Origin: Bolinopsis microptera
Taxonomy: Eukaryota; Ctenophora; Tentaculata; Lobata; Bolinopsidae
NCBI RefSeq assembly: GCF_026151205.1
Contig: NC_087074.1
Span: 10,201,226-10,265,225 of the forward strand
Reading direction: 5' to 3'
Length of the DNA: 64,000 nt
This document shows positions 15,243 through 58,458 of the stretch, in pieces (within the stretch, counting starts at the first letter, position 1; each line of letters starts with the position of its first letter). The notes below the pieces were generated by a model. It did no database searches. It was not told the origin of the DNA and was given only the letters and a program-made list of their open reading frames with translations. A program made the position numbers and the translations under genes.

Positions 15243-15420
15243 CCTCAAACTTATAATCAACGTAGCTTGAATCAATAGAAGGGCAGTTTCTCGGACTAGG
15301 TACTTTATCACAAAACGTATGTTAAGACCTCTAAGTACTGAGTAATTAACCAATAAGTGTATGAAACTGTGGCTCACTGGCCCACGTTTACGTTTATTTA
15401 TTTATAATCTAAGACACCGG

Positions 15421-19832: not shown

Positions 19833-20274
19833 CCTCAAACTTATAATCAGCGTAGCTTGAATCAACAGAAGGCCAGTTTCTCGGACTACTTTATCTCAAA
19901 CGTATGTTAAGACCTCTAAGTACTGAGTAATTAACCAATAAGTGTATGAAACTGTGGCTCACTGGCCCACGTTTACGTTTATTTATTTATAACCTAAGAC
20001 ACCGGTAGTAAAATAATTAAAAAGGAAACAACTCATAGTCATAAGCCGAGGCACGGGTGCGCTAATAGATCGCGTGGTTGAGATCTGTACTGGTATAGTG
20101 TATACTGTATACCAGTATAGTGGTACATGTTGGGCACAGAAAAAGTGTGCAGGTGATCTGACATGAAATGAAACGTTGTAGGTCGTTAATAATACGTGGA
20201 CCATTTCTTAGATTACACAGAAAAGTGGCGGGATTAGATACTGTTATTTGATAGTCAAATTAAATTTACATTTT

Positions 20275-21030: not shown

Positions 21031-21455
21031 TGTAGGATGCACAGTGTGCACGATGAACAGTGTGCACGATGAACAGTGTGCACGATGAACAGTGTGCACG
21101 ATGAAAAGTGTGCACGATGAACAGTGTGCACGATGAACAGTGTGCACGATGAACAGTGTGCACGATGAACAGTGTGCACGATGAACAGTGTGCACGATGA
21201 ACAGTGTGCACGATGAACAGTGTGCACGATGAACAGTGTGCACGATGAACAGTGTGCACGCTGCACAGTGTGCACGATGAACAGTGTGCACGATGAACAG
21301 TGTGCACGCTGCACAGTGTGCACGATGAACAGTGTGCACGATGAACAGTGTGCACGATGAACAGTGTGCACGATGAACAGTGTGCACGATGAACATTGTG
21401 CACGATGAACAGTGTGCACGATGAACAGTGATCACGATGAACAGTGTGCATGATG
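21031..21455. repeat. 16-bp minisatellite in the 3' UTR of the Tudor-PHD-MYND gene
   Basis: About 26 nearly perfect copies of ACAGTGTGCACGATGA; a few units carry a GCTGCACA variant. Because 16 is not a multiple of three, long open frames appear in three frames on the minus strand; these are repeat artefacts. The array starts about 10 bases after the stop codon of the gene at 21465. Confidence 0.9.
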
Positions 21456-21464
21456 CACTCAGTG

Positions 21465-21864
21465 TTATGATTGTCTCTTACAGCACTCGCGTCGGTGTAT
21501 CGCCAAGTGCTCCAACTGAAATTTGAGTGATGTTAGTAAAATACACGTTAAAATTGAGCATTATGGTCAGCTATACAGAAAACGACGTGAGTTCTTATCA
21601 GAACCATTCACAGAGTGAATTGTGCATTCTGACGTGACTGTAAATATGGATAGAAAAAATACAGCATTTCAACAGACTGTTATTAATAAAAGAAGACTAT
21701 ATTATTACTAAAAAATACATCATTAGTTTATCGTTTCTAAACTTCAGACTGTAAGAGTGTATAATCAGTACCTCGCATCTGAGGGAGCAGTAGAGAGCAG
21801 TTGCACACCGTCTACAGGTGATCTGGGCTGTGGAGTAACAGTTGTAGCACTGTCCTGTTATCTT
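21465..21864 (-). CDS. MYND finger exons of the Tudor-PHD-MYND gene
   Basis: Exons 21864-21772 and 21515-21465 jointly encode the finger: C-x2-C-x7-C-x2-C-x5-C-x3-C in the first exon (CYNCYSTAQITCRRCATALY then CSLRC) and H-x3-C in the second (AIHRREC), with eight ligands at predicted residues 1530-1566. The protein ends five residues later (CKRQS, TAA at 21467-21465). The first exon is preceded by a good acceptor (TTCATTTCAG). Confidence 0.88.
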
Positions 21865-24800
21865 CTGAAATGAAGGGAGTTTAGTAATTGGATGGAGAAA
21901 TTGTTCATTTTGGGCAATGATACTTAATATGAATTATGCTTGGAATAGACAAATTATCAAGATAATAGGCAGATGGTAAGTCTGAATATGGAATATGAAT
22001 CATGCTTCAAAAGATAATTTAAAAAAGTTACGTACATTTTTGTTGGGCTCTCTGTTTTCATCCCAAATGTTCGTTGTTGTAAGTTTTTCAGACTCGGTTG
22101 AATTGTTATTGCCAGGAGTAGAACACAGATTTTGTCTATTTGCGATAGGATTAGGGGATATATTCTGCGAGCAATCGATGGGGACAGAGGTTGAATTCTG
22201 CGAACAGGCAACAGGAGCAGGAGAAACGTTCTGCGAACAGGCGACAGGAGCAGGAGAAAAGTTCTGCGAACAGGCGACAGGAGCAGGAGAAACATTCTGC
22301 GAGCAGGTGACAGGAGCAGGAGAAACGTTCTGCGAACAGGCGACAGGAGCAGGAGAAACGTTCTGCGAACAGGCGACAGGAGCAGGAGAAACATTCTGCG
22401 AGCAGGCGACAGGAGTAGGAGAAACATTTTGCGAACAGGCAACAGGTTTGGAGAAAAGATTCTGGGAACAGACAACAGGAGCAGGGGTTACATTCTGTGA
22501 GAATGCAGCAGAAGTAAGGGTCGAATTTTGTGAGAAGGCGTCTGAACCCAGGGATGGATTTTGAGAATTCGTGACAGGCGCAGTGTCCCTAATCTGATGA
22601 AAGATAAAATTAGTATTTTAACTATAAAGTGCCCAAGTTTAATCGTATTTGAAATGTTGTCGCTTAAATAGATCTAAAAAATGTGAGAGAAAGGAATTGA
22701 AATCATAAATAGAATTTGTCGGTGTAACCACTGACCTTTTTTAAACTGCTGACAGCAACAGTAATCAACTCGTGAAGTAAGGTGGCAGTCAGAAAGTTGA
22801 CGGACGTAGCTCTCTCCTCTAGTCTTATCACAGCTGCCCTAATAGCTAGTTCTGAGGTTGTTTTGACAGAGGCAACCATCAACATCTGATGCAAAACTTG
22901 TGAAATGCCTCGAGCCATCAGAATAACAGATTTGTTGGGATACACGGTAGTATGTTTCTGGTCAGATGGGGATGATGCAGGAGGAGGAGAGGTCTTGCAA
23001 TGAAAGGTAGCAGGATGTTGACGGGTGGTCAATGTGGACGATGTTGAAGCCAACTCCTCGGGGGACGCTTTTCTGCTGGAAACATATGGCACTACTGAAA
23101 CATGGTCCATTCTTGTGTTGGAAATAGATGGCACTACAGAAACAGGATCCATTCTTGTGCTGGATACAGATGGCAATACTGAAATATGGTCCATTCTTGT
23201 ATTGGATACAGATGGCACAACTGAAACACGGTCCATTCTTGTGCTGGAAACAGATGACACTACTGAAACATGGTCCATTCTTGTGCTGGAAACAGATTGC
23301 ACTACTGAAACAGGGTCCATTCTTGTGCTGGAAAAAGATGGCACTACTGAAACATGGTCCATTCTTGTGTTAGATACATAAGCATGGTTTGGTCCTGTGC
23401 TGGACCCAGATGCTGTATCAAACAGCTCATCAAGGAAGAGAGTGGCAGAAAAAGGAGTTGTTTGTGAAATTTCCTGCGAAACAGCATTTGTAGTGGAAGT
23501 CATGCTTTTTCCCTCTGAAGATGTTTGGCTCGAAATAAGTTTATCGAGAATTTGAGTGTTGTTGCTGTCAGGGCCAAAGTTTTCACTTCCCTGAGATACA
23601 GGTAATGCCATACGATTGTAGTTCCCTACGTCCCTGAGTTCAGACGATGTCTGAGACGCAGGTTTCTGAGTAACAAACACGTCATCTTCATCACCATCCG
23701 AGTCAAACAGCGAAGAATAACTATCAAAGATGGTGAAACTTTTGATGTTATGATTCGCTTGGTTCTTACTTTTTCGAGGTAAGCCGGATCTGCCCGAAGC
23801 GGACGTTTGTTTAGCATCTGATGTTGAAATATCATCATTCTTTAGTTGAGGTTTTAAAGATGTTTCCTCATTCTTTATAACATTACCAAGCGATGGAATT
23901 GATACCGTGCTAGCCGGTGAGGCCACCTTTTCGAACGGATGCTGAGTTGGAGTCATTGTTAACTGGAAAGGGATTGTTGGAATAGTCTTGACAATGTCGT
24001 TTGATTTTGGGGCCATACTACTCGTTTCCACTGAGTGGAATTTCCTGATGATGGAGTCATTCTTCTGGGAAACAGTTTCAGTGGGACAGGATATACTTTG
24101 CTCAAAAGGTGGCACCACAGACGTTTTGGGAAGAGTCAAATGATTGGATGGTGCTATACCGTCTCCAGTAAGACTAAAAGAAACATGATTTGTGCAAGCT
24201 GATATGGATGTCAAGGGCCCATTAAGGGTGGATGGGCCAATGGGTTTATTGCTACCAAAAACAGGGATAGAAGTTGATGACATTTGAACGGGAAGAAGCG
24301 GCGTAGTAGGTAGACTGCACTGAGCAGGACTGGGTAGATCAGAAACTTTCTGGTTTGTAGCACTGTACGGATACTCTGCAAATGTCTTGGAAAAATCCGC
24401 TGACGAATCCGTATTTGAGGGAACATCTACTTCCGTAATGAATTGAACCGGAACAGAGTTCTTAGTGGACGGATTACATGCAGAGTTAGGCGTTATTATG
24501 ACTGAATTCCCTGCTTGGACCGCGGTGTATATCGATGACATCGGAGGATCTGGTTTTGGTCTTTTTCTTGACGGCACAGACTTGGTTGGTCTCTTCAATT
24601 GCTTCTTCTTCTTCTCCTGATTTTTTACGATGACTGCTTTGGCCATTTTACGGTTCACTGGAATCTTTTTTATCTTCTTCTTTTTTATGTCTTGAATAAA
24701 AGGACCCATCATAGCAAGATTAAAAGGTTCCAGCGGTTGGGAAATTATCTTTTTCGTGGGTTTTAATTCAGCGTCAAACTTCGGCTGGGCACTTGACGTG

Positions 24801-27800
24801 GCCTTAATCAACACAGTTTTTGAGGAAATTGGTACTTCAATTAAATTCGATACAGGCTCCTTATTTTTTGTTAGTGTTGAGGATTCTTGCGGAGAAGCAA
24901 AAACTTCAAAAGGAGAAGACAAAGAGTTTAAAATAGGCGGTATAACTGTTTCCTTCCCAGAGGAGGAGATATTCCTCTCTTCTTGGTCTATCAGCAAACT
25001 GAGGGATTCAAATTCCTTATTGGTAACCAAGGATTTCCCAGAGTTTGAACGCAGAGGAGGTTGTTCTTTTTCTTTCAGGACAGCGGGACTCGCTGCAATG
25101 TGGGCTGAAATGCCCCTCCCGTCTTGGTTCATTAAACTTCGGAGTGATTCCAATTCTTGATCAGTAACAGAAGTTTGTCGAGAGTTTGAACGCGGAGGAA
25201 GCTGCTCTGTTATCTTGCCTCCAGCAGGACTTGCTGCCACGTGTGCAGTTATCCGCTCTATATTCGAGTCAGGTTTTTGGGACTCAGTCGAGTCTTGCTC
25301 TAGAACTTTTTTCAGATTATTTTTAGCACTTGTTTCGACTGAATTCTCCGAGCTAGACGAAGTGCCACGTGAACTTAGGTCCGTCGTATTCCCGGCACTG
25401 TTCAGGCTGGTTACTTGACTTGAACTAGATCCATCCAACTGTTCGGAATTTGAAATGGAGCCAGCTGATGACAATCTTTGAATTTGTTCATTACCATAAG
25501 ATATGAGGTGCTGTACCACTTCACGGTCTATTACAGGATTCCCCTGGGCCCGTGTCTGTTGCAAGAAGTCGTACAGTCGCATGTACAGGCCTCGTATCTG
25601 ATCTGAACTGATGTTGCTGACCAAATCTCCAGATGGTAGTTGCGGAGGATGTTCAAGAAAGGGGTTTGGAGGGATAATAGTGGTGTTTTCTACTATTTCA
25701 GAACGTTCCTGTGGACTAGCTTCAGACTTAACAGGGCGTGTCGAGCACACAGGAGACTTTTTAAGCTTGGAAGATGGCTTGCTAGTGTTGTGTGTCCAAC
25801 TTGAAGAGGGACAGTCAGGGATACTCCGCAAAGGATCAGAGTCCATATCTCTAGCTTTCTGAAGAGGTGGCAGTGACGTCATCAAGGCACTGTGATTGAC
25901 AGTGACGTCACGAGGGGTCATGAGGGGAGGTGGAGAGTAGGATTGTAGACGAGGAGTTTTCTTGACGAGAGGCGACATTTGCAAGGGGGGCGGGCTACAC
26001 ACTGGGTACGCCATGTTGTGATTCAAGGGCTGAACGGTGTTGACTGGTCTGATGGGAAGTGTAGGAGGTGGTACTGGAGGTGGTGATGGTGTGTGAACTG
26101 ATCTAGTCTCTTCTGGTATCAAAGCCTGGTCAGAGGAACAGTTACTTGCGTCTGAAAACTCTTTAGGCACTATTGGGATTGGCTTTTTTATAATTGAAAC
26201 CGTACACTTCTTAGCCACAAATGATTTAGAGGTTTTTGGAGGTTTCGGTGGCGATCGGTGGAGCTTTCTACGTTTCTTTGGAATCTTTTTCTGAAATGAA
26301 AAACGAAAATTAAACTTCCGGTAAATCTTATCGAAGGCAGAAGACGTTTCCCTGAATTTTGTAGGGGATTTTGTAGGGGATTTTGCGCGTCGCACGTACG
26401 TTACAATATTTATAATTGTAGAATTTACAAGGATAAGATTTTAGAGGTCTCACTAAACTGCTCGTATTTAGACACAATAAGATATAAATATAACCGATAA
26501 CTAAATAACACGTAACCCCACTCAGGCCGCCCATCCCAAAATAGCTGAAGTCCCCTAAAATACAGACTGAGAATCTTTACCCCTGTAGGGGATTTCAGTT
26601 CCGTGGTATTTGGAACATGATTTGGTGAGTAGATATGAAGAACCTGACCCAAACAATCAGAAAAACCAAGTTTCGACCTCTTGACCCACTCAGGCCAGTC
26701 ACAGGAACAATGCACAACTATTTGTAGGGGATTTGAAAACCGTGTCAAATCCCCTACAAATCCAGACTGAGAATCTTTACCCCTGTAGGGGATTTCAGTT
26801 CCGTGGTATTTGGAACATGATTTGGTGAGTAGATATGAAGAACCTGACCCAAACAATCAGAAAAATCAAGTTTCGACCTCCCAACCCACTCAGGCCACTC
26901 CCAGGGGCCACGCCCATCCCAAAATAGCTGAAATCTAGGTAAAATAAAGATCGAAAATCTTTACCCCTGTAGGGGATTTATGTTCCGGGGTATTTGGAAC
27001 ATGTTTAGGGTTTTAAATAGTTAGTACCTGTCCCAAACCATCAGAAAAATCAAGTTTCGACCTCCCAACCTACTCAGGCCGCTCCCAGGGGCCACGCCCA
27101 TCCCAAAACAACTTAAATCCAGGACAAATCAAGATTGAAAATCTTTACCCCTGTAGGGGATTTATGTTCCGGGGTATTTAGAACATGTTTTTGTGTAAAA
27201 ATGGGTAGTACCTGTCCCAAACCATCAGAAAAATCAAGTTTCGACCTCCCAACCCACTAAGGCCACTCCCAGGGGCCACGCCCATCCCAAAATAGCTGAA
27301 ATCCAGGTAAAATAAAGATCGAAACTCTTTACCCCTGTAGGGGATTTATGTTCCGGGGTATTTGGAACAAGTTTAGGTGGTTAAATAGTTATTACCTGTA
27401 CCAAACCATCAGAAAAATCAAGTTTCGAACTCCCAACCCACTCAGGCCACTCCTAGGAACAATGCACAACTATTTGTAGGGGCTTTGAAAACCGTGTCAA
27501 ATCCCCTACAAATCCAGACTGAAAATCTTTACCCCTGTAGGGGATTTATGTTCCGGGGTATTTGGAACATGTTTAGGTGGTTAAATAGTTAGTACCTGTA
27601 CCAAACCATCAGAAAAATCAAGTTTCGACCTCCCAACCCACTCAGGCCACTCCCAGGGGCCACGCCCATCCCAAAATAGCTGAAATTCAGGTAAAATCAA
27701 GATCGAAAATCTTTACCCCTGTAGGGGATTTATGTTCCGGGGTATTTGGAACATGTTTAGGGTTTTAAATAGTTAGTACCTGTCCCAAACCATCAGAAAA

Positions 27801-30800
27801 ATCAAGTTTCGACCTCCCAACCTACTCAGGCCACTCCCAGGGGCCACGCCCATCCCAAAATACCTGAAATCCAGGTAAAATCAAGATTGAAAATCTTTAC
27901 CCCTGTAGGGGATTTATGTTCCGGGGTATTTGGAACAGGTTTAGGGGTTTAAATAGTTAGTACCTGTCCCAAACCATCAGAAAAATCAAGTTTCGACCTC
28001 CCAACCTACTCAGGCCGCTCCCAGGGGCCACGCCCATCCCAAAACAACTTAAATCCAGGACAAATCAAGATTGAAAATCTTTACCCCTGTAGGGGATTTA
28101 TGTTCCGGGGTATTTGGAACATGTTTTTGTGTAAAAATGGGTAGTACCTGTCCCAAACCATCAGAAAAATCAAGTTTCGACTTCCCAACCCACTCAAACC
28201 ACTCCCAGGGGCCACGCCCATCCCAAAATAGCTGAAATCCAGGTAAAATCAAGATTGAAAATCTTTACCCCTGTAGGGGATTTATGTTCCGGGGTATTTG
28301 GAACATGTTTTTGTGTAAAAATAGTTATTACCTGTACCAAACCATCAGAAAAATCAAGTTTCGACCTCCCAACCCACTCAGGCCACTCCTAGGAACAATG
28401 TGCAACTATTTGTAGGGGATTTGAAAACCGTGTCAAATCCCCTACAAATCCAGACTGAGAATCTTCACCCCTGTAGGGGATTATGTTCCGGGGTATTTGG
28501 AACATGTTTAGGGTTTTAAATAGTTAGTACCTGTCCCAAACCATCAGAAAAATCAAGTTTCGACCTCCCAACCTACTCAGGCCACTCCCAGGGGCCACGC
28601 CCATCCCAAAATAGCTGAAATCCAGGTAAAATCAAGATTGAAAATCTTTACCCCTGTAGGGGATTTATGTTCCGGGGTATTTGGAACATGTTTTTGTGTA
28701 AAAATGGGTAGTACCTGTCCCAAACCATCAGAAAAATCAAGTTTCGACTTCTCAACCCACTCAAACCACTCCCAGGGGCCACGCCCATCCCAAAATAGCT
28801 GAAATCCAGGTAAAATCAAGATTGAAAATCTTTACCCCTGTAGGGGATTTATATTCCGGGGTATTTGGAACAAGTTTAGGTGGTTAAATAGTTATTACCT
28901 GTACCAAACCATCAGAAAAATCAAGTTTCGACCTCCCAACCCACTCAGGCCACTCCTAGGAACAATGCGCAACTATTTGTAGGGGATTTGGAAACCGTGT
29001 CAAATCCCCTACAAATCCAGACTGAGAATCTTTACCCCTGTAGGGGATTTATGTTCCGGGGTATTTGGAACAGGTTTAGGGGTTTAAATAGTTAGTACCT
29101 GTACCAAACCATCAGCAAAATCAAGTTTCGACCTCCCAACCCACTCAGGCCACTCCCAGGGGCCACGCCCATCCCAAAATAGCTGAAATCCAGGTAAAAT
29201 AAAGATCGAAAATCTTTACCCCTGTAGGGGATTTATGTTCCGGGGTATTTGGAACATGTTTAGGGTTTTAAATAGTTAGTACCTGTCCCAAACCATCAGA
29301 AAAATCAAGTTTCGACCTCCCAACCTACTCAGGCCACTCCCAGGGGCCACGCCCATCCCAAAATAGCTGAAATCCAGGTAAAATCAAGATTGAAAATCTT
29401 TACCTCTGTAGGAGATTTATGTTCCAGGGTATTTGGAACATGTTTTTATGTAAAAATGGATAGTACCTGACCCAAACCATCAGAAAAACCGAGTTTCAAC
29501 ATCTTGACCCACTCAGGCCGCTCCCAGGGGCCACGCCTAACCCAGAAAAGTTACAGGGGGTGGGGCAAAAGTAACGTTACATACGTTGTGTCTTATAGTT
29601 TATACCACCACCGTGTTTCATATTATGGACCTGTAAATTTGCAGATGGCATGCTGTAACTATTACGTCCATATGCATATAATATTAAATCACCTATATTG
29701 TTCTTTCCGGACATGCTAGACGCCCATTTATTTCAGATTACTGTAGATAGTTAATTGGTGCATCTGATCTGAAAAATTGAGGCCAAACGGATTTGAAATG
29801 ACGAAGTTATCAAGCATTTTATGTATCTCGTTAACAAAATTGATTGGGTGATTATGTGATAGGACACCTTAATTGGGTTCCCTTGCTATTTAACGGGGTC
29901 GCCTAATCACCTGAACAGGTAATCCAATCACCTGATCACACGTAATTAATAAACTCGTTATGCCTCGTATCCCGGTCAAATGAGAAGCTACAACTCTCAT
30001 TTTTTCAGATCAAACGTAATTTGAATGGCCAAATACAATTCCATAAAGTTTGGCTTGATCTGATAATCAAAACTATCAAATAAATGCGATAATGAACCTT
30101 CATTCGAAAAAAATTAGCATGAGTATTATTTGATTTAACATATTCCTTGAATGAGTGGTAATAGTAAGTCATACCAAAAAGAATACCCCGGAACACAAAT
30201 CGAATACGGTGGTAAAGATTCTCAGTCTGGGTTTTAAGGGATTTTCAGATATTTTTGGATGGGCGTGGCCCCAGGGAGTTGCCTGATTGGGCTGAGAGGT
30301 CGAAAATTGATTTTTTTTAATGGTTTGGGGCAAATACCAACAATTAAACCATCTTAACAAATTCCAAATACCCCGGAACATAAATCCCCTAAAGGGGTAA
30401 AGATTCTCAGTCTGGATTTCTAGGGGATTTGACACGGCTTCCAAATCCCCTACAAATAGTTGCGCATTGTTCCTGGGAGTGGCCTGAGTGGGTCAAGAGG
30501 TCGAAACTTGGTTTTTATGACTGTTTGAGCCAGGTACTACCTATTAAACCACCTAAACATGTTCCAAATACCCCGGAACATAAATCCCCTACAGGGGTAA
30601 AGATTTTCGATCTTGATTTTGCCTGGATTTCAGCTATCTTGGGATGGGCGTAGCCCCTGGGAGTGGACTGAGTGGGTTGGGAGGTCAAAACTTGATTTTT
30701 CTGATGGTTTGGGACAGATACTAACTATTTAAACCCCTAAACCTGTTCCAAATACCCCGGAACATAAATCCCCTACAGGGGTAAAGATTTTCGATCTTGA

Positions 30801-33800: not shown

Positions 33801-36800
33801 GCCTGAGTGGGTTGGGAGGTCAAAACTTGATTTTTCTGATGGTTTGGGACAGGTACTAACTATTTAAACCCCTAAACCTGTTCCAAATACCCCGGAACAT
33901 AAATCCCCTACATGGGTCAAATCCCCTACAAATCCCCTACAAAAATCAAGGAAACGTGCTCTCATCGAAGGTGGCATCTCTAATACTTAAGATAAGGCAT
34001 ACCGGTTATTAATCAGCGTAGTATAATTTGACACGGGAAATTACAAGCAACCATCGGCAGTCCTTTATTCTACACCAAATTACCCTATGCTGCGCTTTCA
34101 TGCGTGTGATAAATACGAATGACCACTGCTATTCAAATATAGCATACTATGACTCTAAACATGTTGCTAAAGCAACCAACAAGCCGACAGATCGATCTTT
34201 ATTTCTTGACCGAATAAATACTTCATTTAATTACGTAACGAGCTGCATGATCGATCGATCGCGATCTGAGCTAAAATTAAATAAAACAGTACACGCGCGC
34301 AAGAATTGATCCCGATACCAATAGTTGTTACATAGCGCGTTACAAAACCGTAAAGTATTGCGTCAAGTTGCGTCGCAGGATCTACTTATAATACCACGTT
34401 GTCAGGGATAAATTGGTCGCTTTACTGGAATTGGGACCCATCGGAATTTAATGTTTAATAAAGATCTTTCGACAGGAAATGGTACTTAACACCTTAACCA
34501 ATTTGTAATCGCGCTGCATCAAGCATTTTTTTTAACACGTCCATTTCTAAGGTTTCGCGATAGAAAAATCTTCAATATTTCGCTCCCAAAAACGTCAACA
34601 AAAATCTTCATTTAAATGACAAGATATCCATTATGGGAACGTGATGGGGGTACAAGAAGGGCACAGTGAGCACATTTGAAGCATCAACTTTTCTTAAACT
34701 GGACTAACCTGCTGAGGCGCCTCTTTAACTAACTTTCGCTTTCGTTTTATCGGTGATCTAGGTGATGTTGACCTGAAGAAAAAAAAAAACATAATTAACA
34801 TAACAAGTCATGAGATAACAATTCCTGAATCAGTGAAAACATTCAAAAACGTGAAGTATGCAACAGGTCGATCTCTCAACTATCCATATTGCCCATACCT
34901 GGAATTCTCGAATGGATTCTTTATGTACGGATTCTTTTCCTTGCTGACGCAGTAAAAACAGTGCCACTTTTCCTGGGCGATATGCTGGGACGTTATTATG
35001 GTGGGGTGGCACAGCTGGTGATATCCTGGAGGAAATAGTTTGTCATTATCAGTATCTCATACTGTTGAAATATATTAGACCAGGTGTGATGTTATAGTAA
35101 TCTCATCATCACCTGGTGGTGAGAAGGGTGTGTCGGTGAAATAGTACGAAACTATTTATTAGGATTCCCTAAATTTAATATATTGAGATATTCTATATCT
35201 CGTTATAAATATTATATCTGGGAGAGGCCATCTATTCGCACATTTTATACGCTCAAATGCGTTTTCTTTGAACTTTGAAGAATGTAAGAAAATATTAGGT
35301 CACCAGTGCGTTAAAAAGCCTCGTGATATTCATACCTACATTCTGTACGTTCCATCTGTCAAACAGACTAAAGCAGACTAAAGGCGTGTTCTTGAGCTCT
35401 GCTACACGTCAATTAAATGCATATACGAACACCGAACAGTACATATAATATGATATAATGTAATATATAAGAAGACAGATTATATACAATATATTTATAT
35501 ATGACGTGAATAGAGACAAATAGCTCAGTACAGTGTACAGGTTCAATGAGATACGAAGGCCAATTAGTGGTATGTAAGGTATGTAGTACAAGCTAACAGG
35601 TATATTATAATGATGATGCTACATTTCCATTTTCCAGTACATTCCTTTAAATATTGGCAGGACGTAAAGTATTTCCTGTTACATATATTGTTTGGAATGT
35701 CGTACAAACGTTCACAGAGAGTCGTGTGATCTGGTAACTTGTTAGGATTAGGATTCTACATCTTCAAAACACATACCAGAGCATACCAGTCCAGTGTTAG
35801 ATAAACATGTTGTAGGTGTGATACTATGCCAAACATTTCAAAAAATCGTCGCGTGAAATCACTGTGATTGTACATCATGTCATTGTTCTACAGCAATTTT
35901 AGCTCTTCATAAAATAGACCACACGTAATAGCAAGATTGTTTATGTAAACAATTCAAAAGAATGTGCTACATAATTGCCTGTGTTGCAAGGTGTATTTTA
36001 CATTATCAGCTGTAAACACACGGCACAACCTTTATCACACACATAGAGAGTGCAGCTATGTGGTCAGTAGTGTGTGTAACACAAAGAGTGCAGTGTGTGA
36101 AATAATACGAATAGAATGTAAGCCAGATACCTCATTCTTATATAAAAGTCAAGGTTACCAAGGCAACAATGTTATTATAGCATTATTTATTATTGCATCC
36201 CACATAAAATGTAGCAATATTTCAAGTGGGATTTGAACAAATACACTCATACAGTATTTATTAATATTCATGATTATAGAGAGTCCTTTACCTGTATTTC
36301 AGACGGTGATAATGAATATTGGACTACAATTAATTTCCTTCTCGGCTGGAACGCGGGCGTAAGCGGCCGCTGCATCCATACTTTTAGCCGGTTATATTTT
36401 TACCGATAAAAATTTCACCGCCTTAGGTTTAGCCGGTCCTGATCTTCAACGACAAAATACTTATCGGTATCCAATTTTTAATACGATTATTCTTCGCTTA
36501 ATACGATAATAGGATTTCACGTACAAACATTGAAATTCTACGAGAATTTTAATAGGTTTACTTAGATTGAGCAATGAGATACAGCACACTCACACCCCTT
36601 TCAGCACTCACACCCCTTTCAGCACTCACACCTCTTTCAGCACTCACAATTCACATCTCTTTCAGCACACACACGCACCTCTTTCAGCACTTACACCCCT
36701 TTCAGCACTCACATCTCTTTAAGCACACACACGCACCTCTTTCAGCACTTACACCCCTTTCAGCACTCACATCTCTTTCAGCACACACACGCACCTCTTT

Positions 36801-39800
36801 CAGCACTTACACCTCTTTCAGCACTCACATCTCTTTCAACACTCACACCCCTTTCAGCACTCACACCTCTTTCAGCACTCACATCTCTTTCAGCACACAC
36901 ACGCACCTCTTTCAGCACTTACACCCCTTTCAGCACTCACATCTCTTTAAGCACACACACGCACCTCTTTCAGCACTTACACCCCTTTCAGCACTCACAT
37001 CTCTTTCAGCACACACACGCACCTCTTTCAGCACTCACATCTCTTTCAACACTCACACCCCTTTCAGCACTTACACCCCTTTCAGCACTCACATCTCTTT
37101 CAGCACACACACGCACCTCTTTCAGCACTTACACCCCTTTCAGCACTCACATCTCTTTAAGCACACACACGCACCTCTTTCAGCACTTACACCCCTTTCA
37201 GCACTCACATCTCTTTCAGCACACACACGCACCTCTTTCAGCACTCACACCTCTTTCAGCACTCACATCTCTTTCAGCACACACACCTCTTTCAGCACTC
37301 ACACCCCTTTCAGCACTCACATCTCTTTCAACACTCACACCTCTTTCAGCACTCACACCTCTTTCAGCACTCACACCTTTTTCAGCACTCACACCTTTTT
37401 CAGCACTCACACCTCTTTCAGCACTCACACCCCTTTCAGCACTTACACCCCTTTCAGCACTCACATCTCTTTCAGCACACACACGCACCTCTTTCAGCAC
37501 TTACACCCCTTTCAGCACTCACATCTCTTTAAGCACACACACGCACCTCTTTCAGCACTTACACCCCTTTCAGCACTCACATCTCTTTCAGCACACACAC
37601 GCACCTCTTTCAGCACTCACACCTCTTTCAGCACTCACATCTCTTTCAGCACACACGCACCTCTTTAAGCACACACACGCACCTCTTTCAGCACTCACAC
37701 CCCTTTCAGCACTCACATCTCTTTCAACACTCACACCCCTTTCAGCACTCACACCTCTTTCAGCACTCACATCTCTTTCAGCACTCACATCTCTTTCAGC
37801 ACTCACACCCCTTTCAGCACTCACACCTCTTTCAGCACTCACATCTCTTTCAGCACACACGCACCTCTTTAAGCACACACACGCACCTCTTTCAGCACTC
37901 ACACCCCTTTCAGCACTCACATCTCTTTCAACACTCACACCCCTTTCAGCACTCACACCTCTTTCAGCACTCACACCTCTTTCAGCACTCACACCTTTTT
38001 CAGCACTCACACCTCTTTCAGCACTCACACCCCTTTCAGCACTTACACCCCTTTCAGCACTCACATCTCTTTCAGCACACACACGCACCTCTTTCAGCAC
38101 TTACACCCCTTTCAGCACTCACATCTCTTTCAGCACACACGCACCTCTTTAAGCACACACACGCACCTCTTTCAGCACTCACACCCCTTTCAGCACTCAC
38201 ATCTCTTTCAACACTCACACCCCTTTCAGCACTCACACCTCTTTCAGCACTCACACCTCTTTCAGCACTCACACCTTTTTCAGCACTCACACCTCTTTCA
38301 GCACTCACATCTCTTTCAGCACTTACACCCCTTTCAGCACTCACATCTCTTTAAGCACACACACGCACCTCTTTCAGCACTTACACCCCTTTCAGCACTC
38401 ACATCTCTTTCAGCACACACACGCACCTCTTTCAGCACTTACACCCCTTTCAGCACTCACATCTCTTTAAGCACTCACACCCCTTTCAGAACTCACACCC
38501 CTTTCAGCACTTACACCCCTTTCAGCACTCACATCTCTTTCAGCACACACACGCACCTCTTTCAGCACTTACACCCCTTTCAGCACTCACATCTCTTTAA
38601 GCACACACACGCACCTCTTTCAGCACTTACACCCCTTTCAGCACTCACATCTCTTTCAGCACACACACGCACCTCTTTCAGCACTTACACCCCTTTCAGC
38701 ACTCACATCTCTTTCAGCACACACGCACCTCTTTAAGCACACACACGCACCTCTTTCAGCACTTACACCCCTTTCAGATCGTAACCATAAAATCGAAACT
38801 TTGATACAAATGTGATCCAACCATTATTCCAGCCAAATAAATAATAACCGACAACATACTCAAAGCACGCCATATCCAATTTCAACTCTCACTCCTCACG
38901 GAGCCAAAAGAACCACATACTGCTAATATAAACAGACAATTGCCCACAAATTTCGGACGATCACTTGACTTTTTAATGACCACTTCACAACTTCACACCA
39001 TCCGGGTCTAGCCACCCAACTGATGAAATGGTAATAAAATGAAACACCCGTGCTTAATTATACTATTAAATGTAAGCAGGATCTCAGAACTACTAAACGG
39101 AACTCACTTATGTTCCGGGCTGGGTATTTTAATTTCCGGCCGTCTGAGGTTAATTTACTGTTTTTTAATTAACAAGCGTATCTTCGGTGGACATTTTACT
39201 TGTAGGATTGTGTGCTAGGTTCAGTTGTTTTGATCGAGCTGTGAACCTTTTCTAAACAGCAAGCATCGACTTATGTTATGCATGGCACGTGTGCACTGTG
39301 CAGCTATGTAGACTACACCATGTTAAAAGTTAACAGTGGTCATAGAACTTTAAAAGTTGCCTATTTTTCAACATTTCAATCAAGTTGTAATCCTGTAATG
39401 TACACACCAGTAACAGTACTACATACTGCTTACATCTCAGTAAATGTGAGCTGAAATAAAGTAGCGGGTGATACTAACATCATCTTTAAGTGTCTAGATG
39501 TAGGAGGTCCACAAACCCAAGATAATTTGGGAATAAATTATTTATTTGAAAGGCTCCGTATTCGTAACGACTAAAAAGTAGAGCACTTTAACGTTGCTAG
39601 TTTATTTTTTACTAATTTTGTTAATTAGCATAGTTGAAATGCTACACTTACTAAACCATTTACCACAAATCTAAAAAGGTGGTGATGTAACGTTTCGTTT
39701 CCCAGCAGTTGATGTTAAAAGATGAAACTGCGACTGTTGAAGACTAAGAGAATGATCTGCGTGGTGACGGTAATGTTGCTACTGCTAGTGTTTATAGTTG

Positions 39801-42800
39801 AAATGTTCTCCTACTACTCAGCCTCAGTACCACAAAAACTGCAAAATCTTCAGACCAACCACCCTAATGACAGTGTAAACCTTAAAGAAATTGGGAAGAC
39901 AAATGGAGGACCCCTCCAGATTGACAAGAAGAAGCATAATATTCAGATTGCAACAGAGAACATCACTGTGCCCCCAACTACCACTCCGCGACTCATGAGA
40001 ACAGAAGATAAAGATAGAGATAACAAGTGGGAGCCAGGAAGAAAGGAAAATGAGTCAGGAGGAAAGGTAAAGGATTCAGGAGGAAAGGTAAAGGATTCAG
40101 GAGGAAGAAGGATAAAGAAGTCAGGAGGAAGGGTGACTGAAAGGTTTCAGAACAGCCGAATACAACTCTGGGTAAGTGGCCGATGTGCAGCACCAGATAA
40201 GAACAATATTCTGGTTCTTTCCCACTGTGACCCTTCAGTCGACCAACAGTTCACTTTAACGGATAGCGGGATGTTACAGTACGATAATACCACCAAGTGT
40301 GTTGTTGTGGGGGAAGGTTATTCCAACATTCTGAAACTAGGAGATTGTTCAGATGGAGTGGAGTTTGAAGTTATGAAGGGTGTTTATTTAAGAGCAAAAC
40401 ATGAACAAAACAAACAGCTCTGCATGTCCCCAACAGTTGAGAATGCAGGGAGACTTGAAGCAAGTATTAATAGCTGCTTGGGGAATGTTATATCTCTGAC
40501 ACCTTGCTCAGTGAAAGCCTCTAGGATCAAAATTGAAACCGAAAATGTTTTCAAGGAGAAAATGAAACCACTGATAAACGGCAGAGGTGGGCTTACGGAG
40601 GATTGTGATTTTCCCGCTTGCCGACTCAACAAACCTGCAGACCCTATAATCATGACAAATTCTTCAAATACCAAGTGTAGGGACGTGTTTACTTGCGTGA
40701 CAGTCATCACTAAAACTGCACGAAGGCCACAGTTAGTAACCCGACTTGCTCAGTCCATCCGGGACGTCAGGGGAAGTGATCTGAGGATCATAGCTTATGA
40801 TGATGGACCACCACCGGGGGACTATTCTGAAGAGGTGTGGGCAGATATTGCCACATTTCCACTTCTACGATATATCATAGGTTCGGATAGGGATCTTGGG
40901 ATATCTTTAGGGAGAAACTTGGCGTTGAAGCAAGTAAACACTCCGTATTTTCTGTTGCTAGATGACGATCACATCATATCTGGCAATACAAGTATTGAGA
41001 AGATGCTTGGTATACTAGAGAGAACAGATGCCACATTAGTGGGAGGTAAGTGTGCTGGTAAGGACCCGTTCGCTGGGAACCTTCAGTTTCTTTACAGACA
41101 GAACTATAAAATGTTGCGAGTTATTAGTGGGAAATGTGACAGGGAAATTCCACAATTCCCAGGTTGCTCTCAGTGCGATATTGTAAGCAACATATTCCTT
41201 GCAAAAACAAACGACATTATAAAAATGGGCGGTTGGTCGGACGAGCTGAAGATTCTGGAACACACAGACTTCTTTGTGATACTCAGGGCAGCAGGAATGA
41301 AAGCAATGCACTGCCACGATTTCGAGGTTATAAACCAACAAGAAGTAACTCTTAACTCAGAGTATTATAAATTACGATACGGTGTTTTACGTCGGGGCCA
41401 CATGATGAGTTTGGTGATGAGTAAGTACAATATTGATGGGTTAGACCAATGTGGTGGGTGGGTGGTGGGTGGGGACGGGAGGATACTGTGTTTACAGTGC
41501 AGATTTAGGCAGTTCAATTGTTGAATTGTTGATGTGTTAAATAATTAATGATACATAAGTCGTAAGGTTAAAGAGCCAAATTGTAAATAACATTAATTTA
41601 GCCTCAGTGCTGGGCTTTATTACACAAGGGACAAATAAAAATGTTTATTCAAGCTAAGACAAAAAGTCAGAGAAAGAGTTTTCATTATCCGGAAATTGAA
41701 ATAATCTGCTTCTATAAATATTTCCTCTAAGCTGTTTCTAGGCTTGTGTATCAGGGCCAGGGGTTTGGGTTTTATAAATTTGGGCTTACCCTGGTGACAT
41801 ATATATATATATATATATAATAAATAGTTGTTGTTTGGTTTCCCAAAGAGAGTGCTCGACTGCAGTTAAGCAGGAGCATTATTTTATAAAGGAGCAACAT
41901 GTCATAGCGCTACAATTCATTATTCTATTTGGCACTGATGATTGGTATTGTTTTTATACATATCATGAAACGGATCGTTTGCCCGCCAATTTGATTTGTT
42001 TCAATTGTTCGAATTATATATATATTATAACAGTTATTTTAATAAACTTGCTTTCAGAATGAGACATGTAAAGATTACACAATCGATAGCTTAATGTGAA
42101 TTTCGTGTTTTACTGTTTCACTGAATGTCTCAAATATATATATATATATTTATATCAGCAGATTTATAAATCTGCTGTTCATTTGTAGCTATTACCTTGC
42201 TAGTTATGAGTAAATTTTTGCCTTCCATCAATTGAGTGCAGCTTTCAGTTTCAAAATTTTCAGTTTATTCAGATTTTTCGTTTTCGATATTGCAAATTTT
42301 TAATAAATCATGTTCAGATTATGGTGATAATGGATGTAAAGGTACTTCAACCGAATTAACAATCCAACCGTGTGTATGACGTGTCCCAGTAGCCAATCAT
42401 AGTATATATATATATATATCTGATGACTACTTCAGTAAGGAGTAAGTAAAATGATTTAGTTAAATACTTTAAATATCATTATTCTTCAAGATAACCTGAT
42501 TTATAATAACTGATCAAAGATCATTCGTCCTTCTTTTCTTACGAATATTAATAAAAACTGTAATTAATCATTAGCTACAGAGGTGGAAACACAATTGTCG
42601 AATTAGTTCATTACAGGATCAAAGGCATCATTTTTATTGACGAGGAAAATGAACGCCAGTGTGTAGTCATGATGAACCAAAAATATCTTCCAACAAAACG
42701 AATATTGTAATATTATATTGGGTGACTGGATACGGTTTGTTCATGGTACGTTCTAGGTCGGGCAGATTATGCAGAAATGGAAAATGGTAATCATATTAGG

Positions 42801-45567
42801 ATATACGGAAGCAGAAAGGACCCAGAGGATATCATTTTTAATGATGGTAGAGGAGAGACATTTCCATCGCCACTTACATGTACACGTTAACACGTACACG
42901 ATACACGTACACGTACGTCCATGTGATAGAGTTTTGGAGCCCATTTCAAGCCTGCTTAATCCTGAGCTGCTATTATTATTTATATTATTGTGAGAGAGGT
43001 GGAAGAGTGTAGTTTGTAGTACTTATATAATGATATACAATAGTAATATATACGTGAGAACTGAGAAGTGCGTGAGTATTGCGTGAGAAGTGCGTGAGTA
43101 TTGCCGATTGCGCGACATGATCATTAATTGAGTCATCACACTGCACTATATAAACCTTTCCGACTGTTCACATTGTTACAAGACGTAATCTAAAAATGTT
43201 CTGTATATGTAGACATTAGAAGAGATTCGTAGCAATTGTCTGCAACGTAAACTGAGTATTATAAAATTTACAGTCTGTAAGAGTAAAATACATGAAGTTT
43301 AAATCTTAACGCTCTTGATTAGTATACGTGATTTATATTAGGACTACGGCTGCTAACTTATTTTGCAGTTACATTCTGCTGAACTTAGAAACATAGTTTT
43401 ACAAGATTACAGATCAAGTGTAATAACTTCTTATTTATAAAGAGATCAGATAAACAATCGTTTACACATGTTCTTCTTAAAGCATAAACTTAATTCAACT
43501 ATTTAAGTTCGCAATGTGTTGACCGATCTGTGCGGAAATTTATGGATTGACAGAGTTGCTGCGCCATAATACCCTGTAACCACGATATCCCCATAAACTA
43601 ATTTATCCTGATTGGAATGAGAGGATTCTGGAACATACAATACTTATACAATACTACACAATGTACACTACCATATACATACTTACAATACTTGTACAAC
43701 ACAATGTACATAACGATCTAGCGAGGACTTCATCTCGGGCTGTTTGATATCCCCGAGTGTGTCCACAACTGTTGATATCACTAAAACAATAGCCTCATGA
43801 AAAACAGTGAGGAGATGGTGCACTAGAAACCAAGTACACAGATTAACACACAGTGGTACACAGCAGGCAAGGTTAGATAGTAGGCAAGGTTATACCTTGA
43901 CCTCATAAGAAGATATAACACTCGATACTAGGTGTGTGTTTTCAGTGTTTCTAGGCCGTTTAATATGGAAAATGCAAGGGTGAAGCCAGCGGATAGATTT
44001 AAATTCATCATGAAGAAATCACATTTTGCCTACTTGGGCATGAGTAACCTTATTAACTAGTCGTCTGTCGAAGATTGGTTAACATTAAGACATTAGAATA
44101 ACGTTGCATAACGGGAAATTTAGTCCACATATTTCACAACGTCTGCTAGATGGAGAGTTATAAATACTGAAAACGAAGCACCATCTGCATCATCAATGTT
44201 CATCGTGCGACTATAATAATATCTGCACTATGATATATTCTGCAATATTTAATGTATTGTGTAATGTATATTTAATGTACATATTGTACTAAAATAGTAG
44301 CACCAAAGAGTAGCCACTCATAACCTAAAATTTAAGACCTTTTAGGTTATGACACTGTTAATGTGCAGCCGTCTTTTGCAATAGTTGGCCTTGAAACTTT
44401 AAAATGGAGTCCAGAGGATTTATAAAATCACAGTTTGAGCGCCAGTTGTTAATATTGGTGCATTTTACCCAAATCTACCGATTGAATAAATGTATTATAT
44501 AGTTTATACTTTATATTATATTTCCGAAAGTGTTTATTTCATAACTGAGGTCTCAAGACATGCTTCCTGGTTAGAAACGTTCTAGAATCTTCTGGAATAT
44601 TCCTATCTGGACTCTTTCAAATGCGAAATTTTCCATAATCACTTGATTTATTGGGGTATATCATATTATGATATGACGTCACTAACCATGGAATACATTA
44701 ACAATTCAACATTTTTCAGCCGGAAAACGATATAATGGAATTTCCGGTTCAAGGCTATCACAATAAGATAACAAATAATGTGGAATTCTTTAAAAGCAAG
44801 TTAGTTGCTAAGAACGTGTAACGTAGATCTAATTACACTTAATGTAACGAGGCAGAGTTTTCAAATACGGCTTTATCTACCAAATAATCTGGCTAACAAT
44901 CAAATAATATTATTATATTATAATGTCCTGTCAATCCTCCGCAATCAATCCTTGGTAAATTAAAGCGCGAACCATCAATATCAAAACCGGGACACCGATA
45001 AAATGTTCATCAGTGTCTCAGTTTCTAGTCTCAGTTTTCATTGAAAACTGAAATGATCAATGTATTATCTGATCAGTTTGATCTAATTAACTAATAATTT
45101 AATTAACTAATTAGGTGAACTTACCAACATTGCAAGTGTCACACAGTATTATCTCATTAGGAGGTTCTGACTCTCCGAGTTTACAAACCACACACACAAT
45201 CACGTCCGTCTCCGCGGCAACTGAGGGAGCTACGTCAGAAGGTAATAGGTCTAAATATGTATAGTGAGAACGTTCTCATTATACACTACATGTACACTAC
45301 TAATACTATTTGTTGACTTGTCTGTAGTGTAATAATTGCTTAAAATTCCATAAATTTAACATATTTAAACTAGGGATGTGTCCAGGTATGTAACTAAAAC
45401 CTACCATCAAATATGTTGATCCAGTCAACAGCAGCCACACTTCCATCATCAAACTCTGCTACACACTCCTTCCTCGCCAGAGATATGGATCTGATCTTGG
45501 TGTAGTATATCTTGCCATTGGGGACCCGCGCTAGTACCACGTCATTTATATGATAGGGAAAACTCAT
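21465..45567 (-). CDS. Tudor-PHD-MYND chromatin protein (8 coding exons, whole gene)
   Basis: Predicted 1571-residue nuclear protein. Exons in transcript order: 45567-45405, 45229-45125, 35025-34899, 34772-34709, 26290-22736, 22593-22036, 21864-21772, 21515-21465; every junction is GT-AG and phases agree. The N-terminal Tudor next to a PHD finger recalls Polycomb-like (PHF1/MTF2/PHF19) proteins, which read H3K36 methylation, but the second PHD and winged helix of that family are not seen. Instead a long basic, Ser/Pro-rich disordered region with several nuclear-localisation-like clusters leads to a C-terminal MYND zinc finger, a domain that usually binds proline-rich co-repressor peptides. 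An in-frame TAG just upstream supports the start at 45567; the exon appears to begin near 45602 after an acceptor, implying a non-coding first exon further upstream. Introns host a foldback-like element, a satellite array and a nested glycosyltransferase gene. The exon linkage is inferred. Confidence 0.8.
22036..22593 (-). CDS. exon of 11-residue coding repeats (Tudor-PHD-MYND gene)
   Basis: 186 codons, phase 0 at both ends. The core is about eight tandem copies of NVSPAPVACSQ (33 bp each), flanked by diverged versions such as NSTLTSAAFSQ. The opposite strand and other frames also stay open, which produces misleading ORFs there. Low-complexity linker just before the MYND finger. Confidence 0.78.
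22736..26290 (-). CDS. large disordered-region exon (Tudor-PHD-MYND gene)
   Basis: 1185 codons without a stop. Begins after the acceptor TTCATTTCAG with KKIPKKRRKLHRSPPKPPK (basic) and ends at donor AAG|GTCAGT. Mostly Ser/Pro/Thr-rich and predicted disordered, with basic clusters (KKKKIKKIPVNRK, KKKKQLKRPTK) and two helical-looking segments (around DQIRGLYMRLYDFLQQT, and SELAIRAAVIRLEERATSV near the exon end). The frame stays open upstream to 26395, but that part overlaps the end of the intronic foldback element and is taken as intron read-through. Confidence 0.85.
23075..23385 (-). repeat. coding tandem repeat, 14 residues x 7
   Basis: Seven 42-bp units encoding variants of SSTRMDHVSVVPSV within the large exon. 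The unit length is a multiple of three, so the frame is kept. Units differ at fixed positions (DHV/DPV/DRV; VPS/VQS/VSS/LPS). Confidence 0.85.
26520..29560 (+). repeat. left arm: about 16 tandem units of about 184 bp
   Basis: Units contain TTTACCCCTGTAGGGGATTT, TTCCGGGGTATTTGGAACA and CCCAGGGGCCACGCCCATCC. Four units carry a longer variant with an extra stem-loop in which ATTTGTAGGGGATTTGA and its complement are separated by about 8 bases (near 26721, 27473, 28410, 28977). Confidence 0.92.
29561..30189. other. unique centre of the foldback-like element
   Basis: About 630 bases without the 184-bp unit, AT-rich, no convincing coding frame. Confidence 0.6.
30190..33940 (-). repeat. right arm: about 20 tandem units of about 184 bp, inverted
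   Basis: Reverse complement of the left-arm unit (AAATCCCCTACAGGGGTAAA, TGTTCCAAATACCCCGGAAC). Two stem-loop-bearing variant units lie near 30415 and 30985, next to the centre. Units from about 31300 on are much more uniform than those of the left arm. Confidence 0.92.
33972..34708. other. intron sequence, no gene seen
   Basis: Remainder of the intron between the foldback-like element and the linker exon. A 93-codon plus-strand frame at 34028-34309 has no family resemblance and is not called. Confidence 0.4.
34709..34772 (-). CDS. short basic linker exon (Tudor-PHD-MYND gene)
   Basis: 64 bases, encoding STSPRSPIKRKRKLVKEAPQ plus Q. Acceptor TTCTTCAG after a long T-run, donor CAG|GTTAGT; phases match the PHD exon before and the large exon after. 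KRKRK looks like a nuclear localisation signal. Confidence 0.75.
34899..35025 (-). CDS. PHD finger exon, C-terminal half (Tudor-PHD-MYND gene)
   Basis: Encodes YHQLCHP...EKWHCFYC, giving the His and last three Cys ligands of the PHD finger. Acceptor CTCCAG, donor CCAG|GTATGG. It begins with two bases that complete the Gly codon of the exon at 45125-45229. One other frame is also open and contains YRPGKVAL, superficially like histone H3, but is phase-incompatible with the neighbouring exons. Confidence 0.85.
35026..36573. other. intron sequence, no gene seen
   Basis: AT-rich intron of the Tudor-PHD-MYND gene, start of the 10.1-kb intron that holds the 18-bp array and the nested glycosyltransferase gene. 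No supported feature. Confidence 0.4.
36574..38790. repeat. 2.2-kb array of an 18-bp unit with higher-order structure
   Basis: More than 110 copies of CTCTTTCAGCACTCACAC and variants (CCCTTTCAG, ATCTCTTTAAG, CACACACGCAC). Variants recur in the same order, forming multi-unit higher-order repeats. The unit is a multiple of three, so long frames on both strands (for example 364 codons on the plus strand) are artefacts. Confidence 0.93.
38791..39721. other. spacer upstream of the nested glycosyltransferase gene
   Basis: AT-rich; should contain the promoter of the gene at 39722. An acceptor-like TTTCGTTTCCCAGCAG ends about 15 bases before the ATG, so a 5' UTR intron is possible. Confidence 0.45.
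39722..41524 (+). CDS. ricin-type lectin + GT12-like glycosyltransferase, type II membrane protein
   Basis: Single-exon gene, 600 residues, probably a Golgi GalNAc-transferase-like enzyme. A short basic cytoplasmic tail (KLRLLKTKR) precedes a membrane anchor at about residues 11-29, then a low-complexity Gly/Lys stem with GGKVKDS repeats (about 105-140). Residues about 145-265 look like a ricin-B beta-trefoil (QLWVSGRCAAP, DQQFTL as QxF/W, LRAKHEQNKQLCM). The catalytic domain (about 325-590) resembles the B4GALNT1/2 family GT12: CVTVITKTARRPQLVTRL, IAYDDGPPP, GRNLALKQV, FLLLDDDHI with the metal-binding acidic cluster at 414-416, and FLAKTNDIIKMGGW. It lies inside a 10-kb intron of the Tudor-PHD-MYND gene on the opposite strand. 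Acceptor and donor sugar cannot be told. Confidence 0.85.
   Translation: MKLRLLKTKRMICVVTVMLLLLVFIVEMFSYYSASVPQKLQNLQTNHPNDSVNLKEIGKTNGGPLQIDKKKHNIQIATENITVPPTTTPRLMRTEDKDRDNKWEPGRKENESGGKVKDSGGKVKDSGGRRIKKSGGRVTERFQNSRIQLWVSGRCAAPDKNNILVLSHCDPSVDQQFTLTDSGMLQYDNTTKCVVVGEGYSNILKLGDCSDGVEFEVMKGVYLRAKHEQNKQLCMSPTVENAGRLEASINSCLGNVISLTPCSVKASRIKIETENVFKEKMKPLINGRGGLTEDCDFPACRLNKPADPIIMTNSSNTKCRDVFTCVTVITKTARRPQLVTRLAQSIRDVRGSDLRIIAYDDGPPPGDYSEEVWADIATFPLLRYIIGSDRDLGISLGRNLALKQVNTPYFLLLDDDHIISGNTSIEKMLGILERTDATLVGGKCAGKDPFAGNLQFLYRQNYKMLRVISGKCDREIPQFPGCSQCDIVSNIFLAKTNDIIKMGGWSDELKILEHTDFFVILRAAGMKAMHCHDFEVINQQEVTLNSEYYKLRYGVLRRGHMMSLVMSKYNIDGLDQCGGWVVGGDGRILCLQCRFRQFNC
41634..41639 (+). promoter_or_regulatory. 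polyadenylation signal AATAAA
   Basis: Canonical hexamer 110 bases after the stop of the glycosyltransferase gene. Confidence 0.6.
41640..45124. other. intron sequence with TA microsatellites, no gene seen
   Basis: AT-rich rest of the 10-kb intron. Short TA runs at about 41800-41820, 42137-42150 and 42404-42419, and a small GCGTGAGTATT/GAGAAGTGCGTGAG tandem near 43050-43110. No coding segment recognised. Confidence 0.5.
45125..45229 (-). CDS. PHD finger exon, N-terminal half (Tudor-PHD-MYND gene)
   Basis: 105 bases encoding CVVCKLGESEPPNEIILC and DTCNVG: C-x2-C-x13-C-x2-C at predicted residues 67-87. Donor AATGTTG|GTAAGT, acceptor GACGTAG. With the exon at 34899-35025 the full pattern is C4-H-C3. 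Confidence 0.88.
45405..45567 (-). CDS. Tudor domain exon and start codon (Tudor-PHD-MYND gene)
   Basis: Starts MSFPYHINDVVLARV; the Tudor barrel follows (GKIYYTKIRSISLARKECVA, then FDDGSVAAVDW). The spacing to the PHD finger (about 12 residues) is as in Polycomb-like proteins. Donor GATG|GTAGGT. The frame stays open a little upstream of the ATG with GTG codons, then meets TAG near 45599. Confidence 0.82.
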
Positions 45568-58036: not shown

Positions 58037-58458
58037 TTGGGGAACCTACAAAGGAATTACGAACATGATATAAACGTAATCTTGCTGACATGTATTGTGA
58101 ATAAGAGATAGGCTTTGCAATATGACATTGTTTCATTGTTTATTATCGATTTTACAGTTTGGTTGCCACACCCTCTTCCCTTCTAATTCCCATTCATTTC
58201 AGTGAAACATCTTTATTTAAAATAATAAACTAGTCTAAAAACTATAAAATGAAAGTTGTATCTAAATGAAATTGTTACTAATTGGTATCAAATATCATGT
58301 ACATGATATATTATATAATAAACATTGTACTGGAAGCACTCATAAAAAGTCAACATATGAGTCACAAAACCGCTGGTCACCAGGGGTTGAAGAACAGTGA
58401 TACATTCCGAGAGTTTCAGAAAAGCTCCTTTCAAACTAAATCTCTAAATTCACAATTG

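Follow-up and report, generated by a model that had tools for sequence, protein, structure and literature searches.

A candidate ctenophore gene that links a Polycomb-like Tudor-PHD head to a C-terminal MYND finger

Introduction

Where PRC2 acts is determined in part by Polycomb-like (PCL) proteins (PMC10137883). In PHF1, MTF2, PHF19 and Drosophila Pcl, a Tudor domain is closely followed by a first PHD finger, PHD1. The methyl-lysine cage of the PHF1 Tudor domain consists of W41, Y47, F65 and F71, and H3tK27me3 and H3K36me3 occupy this same cage (PMC7492083). When measured on H3tK27me3, no binding was detectable for W41A, Y47A and F65A, while F71A bound approximately threefold more weakly; the MTF2 Tudor domain, which has a Ser at the F71 position, is described as a weak binder (PMC7492083). 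A short isoform of human PHF19, hPCL3S, contains the Tudor domain and PHD1 without PHD2 and the C-terminal parts. This isoform of 207 aa is generated by read-through and intronic polyadenylation (PMC7105160), and the passages that cover it report no interaction with PRC2 (PMC10137883). The effects of hPCL3S on growth and migration survive the loss of the Tudor cage Trp, its proliferative effects need PHD1, and the authors favour effects that are mainly chromatin-independent (PMC7105160).

Among proteins with a MYND finger, ZMYND8 and ZMYND11 (BS69) carry it at the C-terminus and have a PHD finger elsewhere in the chain, an architecture covered in part by PMC6172302. Gln529 and Trp533 of DEAF-1 contact SMRT/NCoR peptides, as do a Gln and a Trp of ETO; the affinity of DEAF-1 for these peptides is only millimolar, and the BS69 MYND finger seems to use another ligand mode (PMC3555993). 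Tudor and MYND domains are combined in TDRD1, a piRNA pathway protein with multiple Tudor domains of the T3 type, for which no PHD finger is listed in the excerpted text of a Holozoa-wide survey of Tudor genes (PMC12147562). In the same excerpts, PHD is the partner domain of PHF1/19/MTF2, and MYND is named once, for TDRD1.

Here, we have analyzed a stretch of 64,000 nucleotides from the ctenophore Bolinopsis microptera (NC_087074.1, positions 10,201,226 to 10,265,225), hereafter called the window. An initial annotation of the window had proposed a gene with Tudor, PHD and MYND domains. The genome in which homologs were searched comprises 264.65 Mb in 232 contigs, with the window located on contig C3. 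Positions without a contig or locus name are those of the window.

Results

A predicted Tudor-PHD-MYND product from eight exons

Eight exons on the minus strand, at positions 45567..21465, give a predicted product of 1578 residues, slightly longer than the 1571 residues initially annotated, in which a Tudor domain and a PHD finger are followed by a long low-complexity region and a MYND finger. All seven introns have GT...AG ends and the entry phases are 1,1,2,0,0,0,0, so that the proposed set of same-strand exons with agreeing phases was recovered. Exon 1 (45405..45567) contains the ATG and the Tudor domain (aa 1-54), with best matches to the Tudor structures of PHF1/PHF19/MTF2. The first half of the PHD finger, with Cys ligands 1-4, is encoded by exon 2 (45125..45250), and the second half, with H..C and WHCFYC and a best match to PHD1 of MTF2, by exon 3 (34899..35025). 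The C4HC3 ligand set is full only once exons 2 and 3 are joined across an intron of 10,099 bp, which confirms the claim of a finger split over two exons 10 kb apart. Exon 3 was also the only H..C...C..C candidate recognised in a motif scan of the minus strand between 21.5 and 45 kb, in which three simple patterns were applied to stop-to-stop frames. A basic linker, STSPRSPIKRKRKLVKEAPQQ, is encoded by exon 4 (34709..34772). Exon 5 (22736..26290) covers 3555 nt or 1185 codons, with a basic start and a mostly Ser/Thr/Pro-rich remainder, and exon 6 (22036..22593) consists of a 33-bp repeat that encodes the 11 aa CSQNVSPAPVA. The first six Cys ligands of the MYND finger are located in exon 7 (21772..21864), and its His/Cys ligands, followed by the TAA stop, in exon 8 (21465..21515).

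The join between exons 4 and 5 spans the 8,418 bp of intron 4 (26291..34708), of which about 6.2 kb of 8.4 kb are taken up by two satellite arrays (26758-29544 and 30472-33917) with 14.9 and 18.7 copies of a 184-bp unit. The arrays are in opposite orientation, their consensus units reading as reverse complements, and the satellite-filled intron could be a place where two loci have been brought together. Read on without splicing, exon 4 encodes VSPV and then a TAA stop; in this case, a short Tudor-PHD1 protein that closely resembles hPCL3S would result, and the MYND finger would belong to a gene of its own. Under this alternative, a small Tudor-PHD1 gene (exons 1-4, with read-through into intron 4 and the VSPV end) would neighbour a low-complexity/MYND gene (exons 5-8) that starts in exon 5 or in an unseen upstream exon. 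The stop and the satellite content of intron 4 are consistent with such an arrangement, as is the abundance of MYND fingers in the genome (45 matches at E <= 0.01 in a profile search), which makes a MYND finger without Tudor-PHD an ordinary find. Against it stand a GT donor at exon 4 and a pyrimidine-rich AG acceptor at exon 5, both of consensus type and with phase 0 on both sides, although an agreement in phase has a probability of about 1 in 3 by luck. Moreover, an ATG is missing from the open frame of exon 5 both before the acceptor and over the first 90 codons or so past it, and the basic run carries on over the join (KRKRKLVKEAPQQ before it and KKIPKKRRKLH after it). We consider two neighbouring genes to be rather unlikely.

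It is less probable still that a single gene yields two products, with the short Tudor-PHD1 protein as the main product via intronic polyadenylation, as in human PHF19, and the long MYND form beside it. The manner in which hPCL3S is made provides a precedent (PMC7105160), and exons 5, 6 and 7 are each of phase 0-0, so that skipping them keeps the frame and phase tells little about which of these exons are used. On the other hand, one would hardly expect a 1185-codon open frame to have been maintained if the long form served no purpose. That exons 1-8 form one gene, judged jointly with the whole reading of its product as a PRC2-independent adaptor, is in our estimate moderately probable.

Several other features were observed in and around the gene. 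Intron 2 harbours, on the plus strand and thus opposite to the gene, an intronless open frame of 601 aa (39719..41524) that is not part of the Tudor-PHD-MYND gene; its GT2 glycosyltransferase domain scores over the cut-off, and a match to a ricin-type lectin stays below its own. A tandem array of the CACTCACACCCCTTTCAG type (36587-38777) extends over about 2.2 kb, has a strong C skew and is open in several frames. A second array, with 26 copies of a 16-bp unit (21036-21455), starts about 10 bases past the stop of the MYND exon and is open in all three minus-strand frames. Elsewhere on the minus strand of the window, a tandem pair of very similar receptor-like ORFs (14241-15401 and 18843-19895) appears by eye to have seven helices, with no Pfam match over the cut-off for 18843-19895, and two related Cys-rich ORFs of 204 aa (57431-58045 and 61712-62326) are likewise arranged in tandem.

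A Polycomb-like Tudor-PHD1 unit with an altered cage

In a comparison with solved structures, the joined Tudor-PHD segment matched MTF2 (5xfr) with an E-value of 4e-15 over residues 10-123, that is, across both exon joins, and PHF1 with an E-value of 1.5e-9. Two of the head exons were also searched singly. Exon 1 alone had its best match to PHF1 Tudor structures (E 0.0016) and exon 3 alone to PHD1 of MTF2 (E 6.8e-4), and since both rank PCL proteins first, these parts point independently to one family. By sequence similarity, the segment is thus a Tudor-PHD1 unit of the PCL type, in agreement with the initial annotation. The predicted protein contains a single Pfam PHD match (35.9 bits, cut-off 24), whereas its match to Tudor_2 (21.4 bits) is below the cut-off of 31.4, and the window Tudor domain was missed in a genome-wide search with the Tudor_2 profile.

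In an ungapped alignment, the PHF1 cage residues W41, Y47, F65 and F71 correspond to V, Y, F and A in the window Tudor domain. The initial annotation had assumed that the protein reads methylated H3K36, which is unlikely with W41 and F71 replaced by V and A, given the undetectable binding of PHF1 W41A to H3tK27me3 (PMC7492083). In MTF2, itself a weak binder, the F71 position is occupied by Ser, so that a change of F71 alone would mean little, and the loss of the Trp is the telling one. As the case of MTF2 shows, an incomplete cage does not preclude weak binding by a Tudor domain. The zinc ligands of the PHD finger are complete, and residues 101-200, the basic stretch after PHD1, include 27 Lys/Arg. 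We infer from these features that the Tudor domain may serve a structural role and not that of a reader, and that binding would fall to PHD1 together with the basic stretch.

Canonical Polycomb-like exons on another contig

A second PHD exon of the PCL type was identified on contig C5 with the window Tudor-PHD as query (68% identical over 31 residues). It is adjoined by a Tudor exon at C5:19631826 and by the second half of PHD1 at C5:19632440, and the joined C5 Tudor and PHD1 matched MTF2 5xfr with an E-value of 4.1e-14. The C5 Tudor domain keeps a Trp and a Tyr that align with those of MTF2, the cage Trp included. Downstream of these, PHD2 is encoded by an exon at C5:19685317 (E 1.5e-8) and another at 19695871 (E 0.007; Pfam PHD 1.2e-5). 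The Mtf2_C profile matched the genome twice, each time on C5, and the match at C5:19737013 (E 2.5e-6; 7.6e-9 as protein), likewise downstream, was the sole one over the cut-off. The Tudor, PHD1, PHD2 and Mtf2_C exons are located on one strand and span about 105 kb, and from their order and strand we take them to represent one canonical Polycomb-like gene. Its PHD1 intron, the position of which was derived by homology, starts with a GC donor, is of phase 0 and is shifted downstream by three codons relative to the PHD1 intron of the window gene. The PHD2 exons occur twice, at C5:19575916/19586740 and 19685317/19695871, about 109 kb apart and flanking the Tudor-PHD1 exons, which points either to duplication in the recent past or to an error in the assembly. 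A retroelement-like ORF was observed beside one of the PHD2 copies (L012).

Two pieces of a VEFS-box, both over the cut-off, were recovered from C8, which suggests that SUZ12 and so PRC2 are encoded in this genome. As judged from these homologs, a canonical Polycomb-like gene would have been kept in the genome, probably along with PRC2. The window gene as the only Polycomb-like gene of the genome was accordingly rejected, and the C5 exons likewise contradict the idea that it has replaced the Polycomb-like protein of this species.

A query with PHD2 and the winged helix gave seven matches in the genome, on C5 (four), C2, C14 and C11, with none at the window or elsewhere on C3, and the Mtf2_C profile had no match on C3 either. 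We therefore rejected the possibility that PHD2 or Mtf2_C are hidden in the introns of the window gene. The winged-helix part of the query, an approximate human sequence, matched neither the window nor the canonical C5 region. The proposal that the second PHD finger and the winged helix have been replaced in the window gene is thereby supported as regards PHD2, of which no match was found at the locus. Taken together, the window gene looks like an extra, diverged copy of the Polycomb-like head, a putative paralog of PCL origin that ends in a MYND finger and in which neither PHD2 nor Mtf2_C was detected.

The window Tudor-PHD query (part 86-136) also had weak matches (E 0.05-0.28 each) to a multi-copy ORF. 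This ORF, found at 1420-3144 of L008 and at 31 other places, encodes a PHD-like finger and then an endonuclease-like stretch, and we presume that it is probably a LINE-type retroelement.

A long low-complexity tail

Nothing in exon 5 came near any Pfam cut-off, and a known domain in its 1185 codons was rejected. Composition suggests that the encoded segment is disordered. Two exon 5 segments, modelled from single sequences, gave three helices (mean pLDDT 61.9) and a hairpin (60.8), both of low confidence. The exon contains seven tandem copies of a 42-bp unit, corresponding to 14 aa each. Minority letters in these repeats showed no excess by codon position (5, 8 and 6 at the three positions, 7/7 units), and in the repeats of exon 6 there was an excess at the third position (10, 5 and 18, counted in 9 of the 10 CSQN-anchored units with the last one left out). 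Taken over both exons, the repeats thus speak only mildly in favour of coding constraint.

The predicted protein contains two PPPL motifs, which start at residues 260 and 280 and resemble the ligands of co-repressor MYND fingers, and it has no PXLXP motif. It may be speculated that the tail with its PPPL motifs is bound by the MYND finger of another protein. A genome search with the initial 285 residues encoded by exon 5 yielded a single further match, a short one on C13 (1510-1578 of L027; C13:7926795) with 88% identity over 69 bp.

A MYND finger with an unusual ligand groove

All eight zinc ligands (C4-C2HC) of the MYND finger are present, and with 23.7 bits the finger scores narrowly over the Pfam cut-off of 22.7, which substantiates the annotated MYND domain at the C-terminus. 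Its best matches among solved structures are CBFA2T1/ETO (E 0.0026) and ZMYND11, with E-values between 0.0026 and 0.02. The split finger of the window is absent among the 45 genomic matches mentioned above. The best-scoring other MYND finger of the genome is 36% identical to it (E 0.0023) and the start of exon 5 has only the short match on C13; an origin of the MYND finger or of exon 5 from a recognisable paralog in this genome was thus rejected.

At the places of DEAF-1 Gln529 and Trp533, the window MYND finger has E and L. In comparison, Q and W were found in 16/16 other MYND fingers read in the same genome (14 by script and two by eye). These 16 have the highest scores among 28 matches at E <= 1e-7, a selection that favours typical fingers, and two pairs of matches may each come from a single gene. 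Q and W were kept even in a finger with His as its sixth ligand (L047) and in one without the last Cys (L043). The binding of co-repressors that the initial annotation had assigned to this domain is unlikely in view of this difference, but the millimolar affinity of DEAF-1 and the other ligand mode of BS69 speak against a strong conclusion from the change to E and L. The model in which an H3K36me3 reader brings in SMRT/NCoR-type co-repressors via MYND has the domain families right and may appeal to the CBFA2T1/ETO and ZMYND11 matches and to the protein's own PPPL motifs, yet with W41V and F71A in the cage, E/L in place of the Q/W of all 16 controls and no PXLXP in the protein, it is very improbable and the weakest of the alternatives.

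Discussion

The head of the window protein resembles PHF1 and MTF2 through both Tudor and PHD1. The predicted protein differs from PHF1, MTF2, PHF19 and Pcl in that it has no match to PHD2 or Mtf2_C, a broken cage, and an added tail of about 1,400 residues with a MYND finger. An incomplete cage is shared with MTF2, a true member of the PCL family (PMC7492083). The C5 exons have Tudor and PHD1 in common with the window gene, and in addition PHD2, Mtf2_C and the cage Trp. Unlike the window protein, hPCL3S has no MYND finger and is an isoform made by intronic polyadenylation.

In ZMYND8 and ZMYND11, a bromodomain and a PWWP domain are placed between PHD and MYND, whereas neither domain was matched when the whole window protein was searched against Pfam in three overlapping pieces. 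The MYND finger has its best solved match in ETO/MTG (CBFA2T1), but it differs from those of ETO/MTG and DEAF-1 in that the Gln and Trp of the peptide groove are missing. None of the other Pfam domains of ETO/MTG and DEAF-1 was matched in the window protein. It also differs from TDRD1, with its multiple T3-type Tudors, role in the piRNA pathway and domain list without PHD (PMC12147562). In the literature searched, at the level of titles and abstract starts, no Tudor-PHD-MYND protein is named, and the excerpts of PMC12221973 and PMC11160669 contain nothing of this type, consistent with the initial annotation, in which no described family with this domain order was known. Titles and abstract starts also offer little on ctenophore Polycomb-like proteins. 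No relatives of the window protein were found in the viral_contigs and genome_contigs collections, both of which are poor places for animal genes.

Our preferred reading, to which we lean with some reserve, is that the gene encodes a 1578-residue PRC2-independent adaptor derived from a duplicated Polycomb-like gene. The comparison with hPCL3S, which has the same head and in which the same PHD2 and C-terminal parts are missing, suggests this reading by analogy. Without PHD2 and the chromo-like C-terminus, the window protein would stay outside PRC2, and its broken Tudor cage would not read methyl-lysine. PHD1 and the strongly basic stretch could hold the protein at chromatin or at partner proteins, while the long low-complexity tail would present the MYND finger to a partner that is not recognised via the usual Gln/Trp proline-peptide groove. 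In short, the protein may work like hPCL3S with a MYND tail added. The chromatin-independent effects favoured for hPCL3S speak against holding at chromatin, and by analogy the window protein may likewise exert its effects away from chromatin.

More tentatively, and with somewhat more doubt than conviction, we suggest that the gene encodes a chromatin regulator of the ctenophore lineage in which a duplicated Polycomb-like head was freed from PRC2 and joined to a MYND finger with an unusual ligand groove. Chromatin or partners bound by PHD1 would thereby be connected to the MYND ligand in a pathway that is new and independent of PRC2. The presence in one genome of canonical Polycomb-like exons and of a derivative without the PRC2-docking parts is a natural test of the Tudor-PHD1 head by itself, and what this head does alone is a question also raised by human hPCL3S. 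If the reading is true, the cage for reading has been lost from a chromatin-reader head while a different effector domain was acquired, and a new PRC2-independent pathway would exist in a lineage that branches off at the base of the animal tree.
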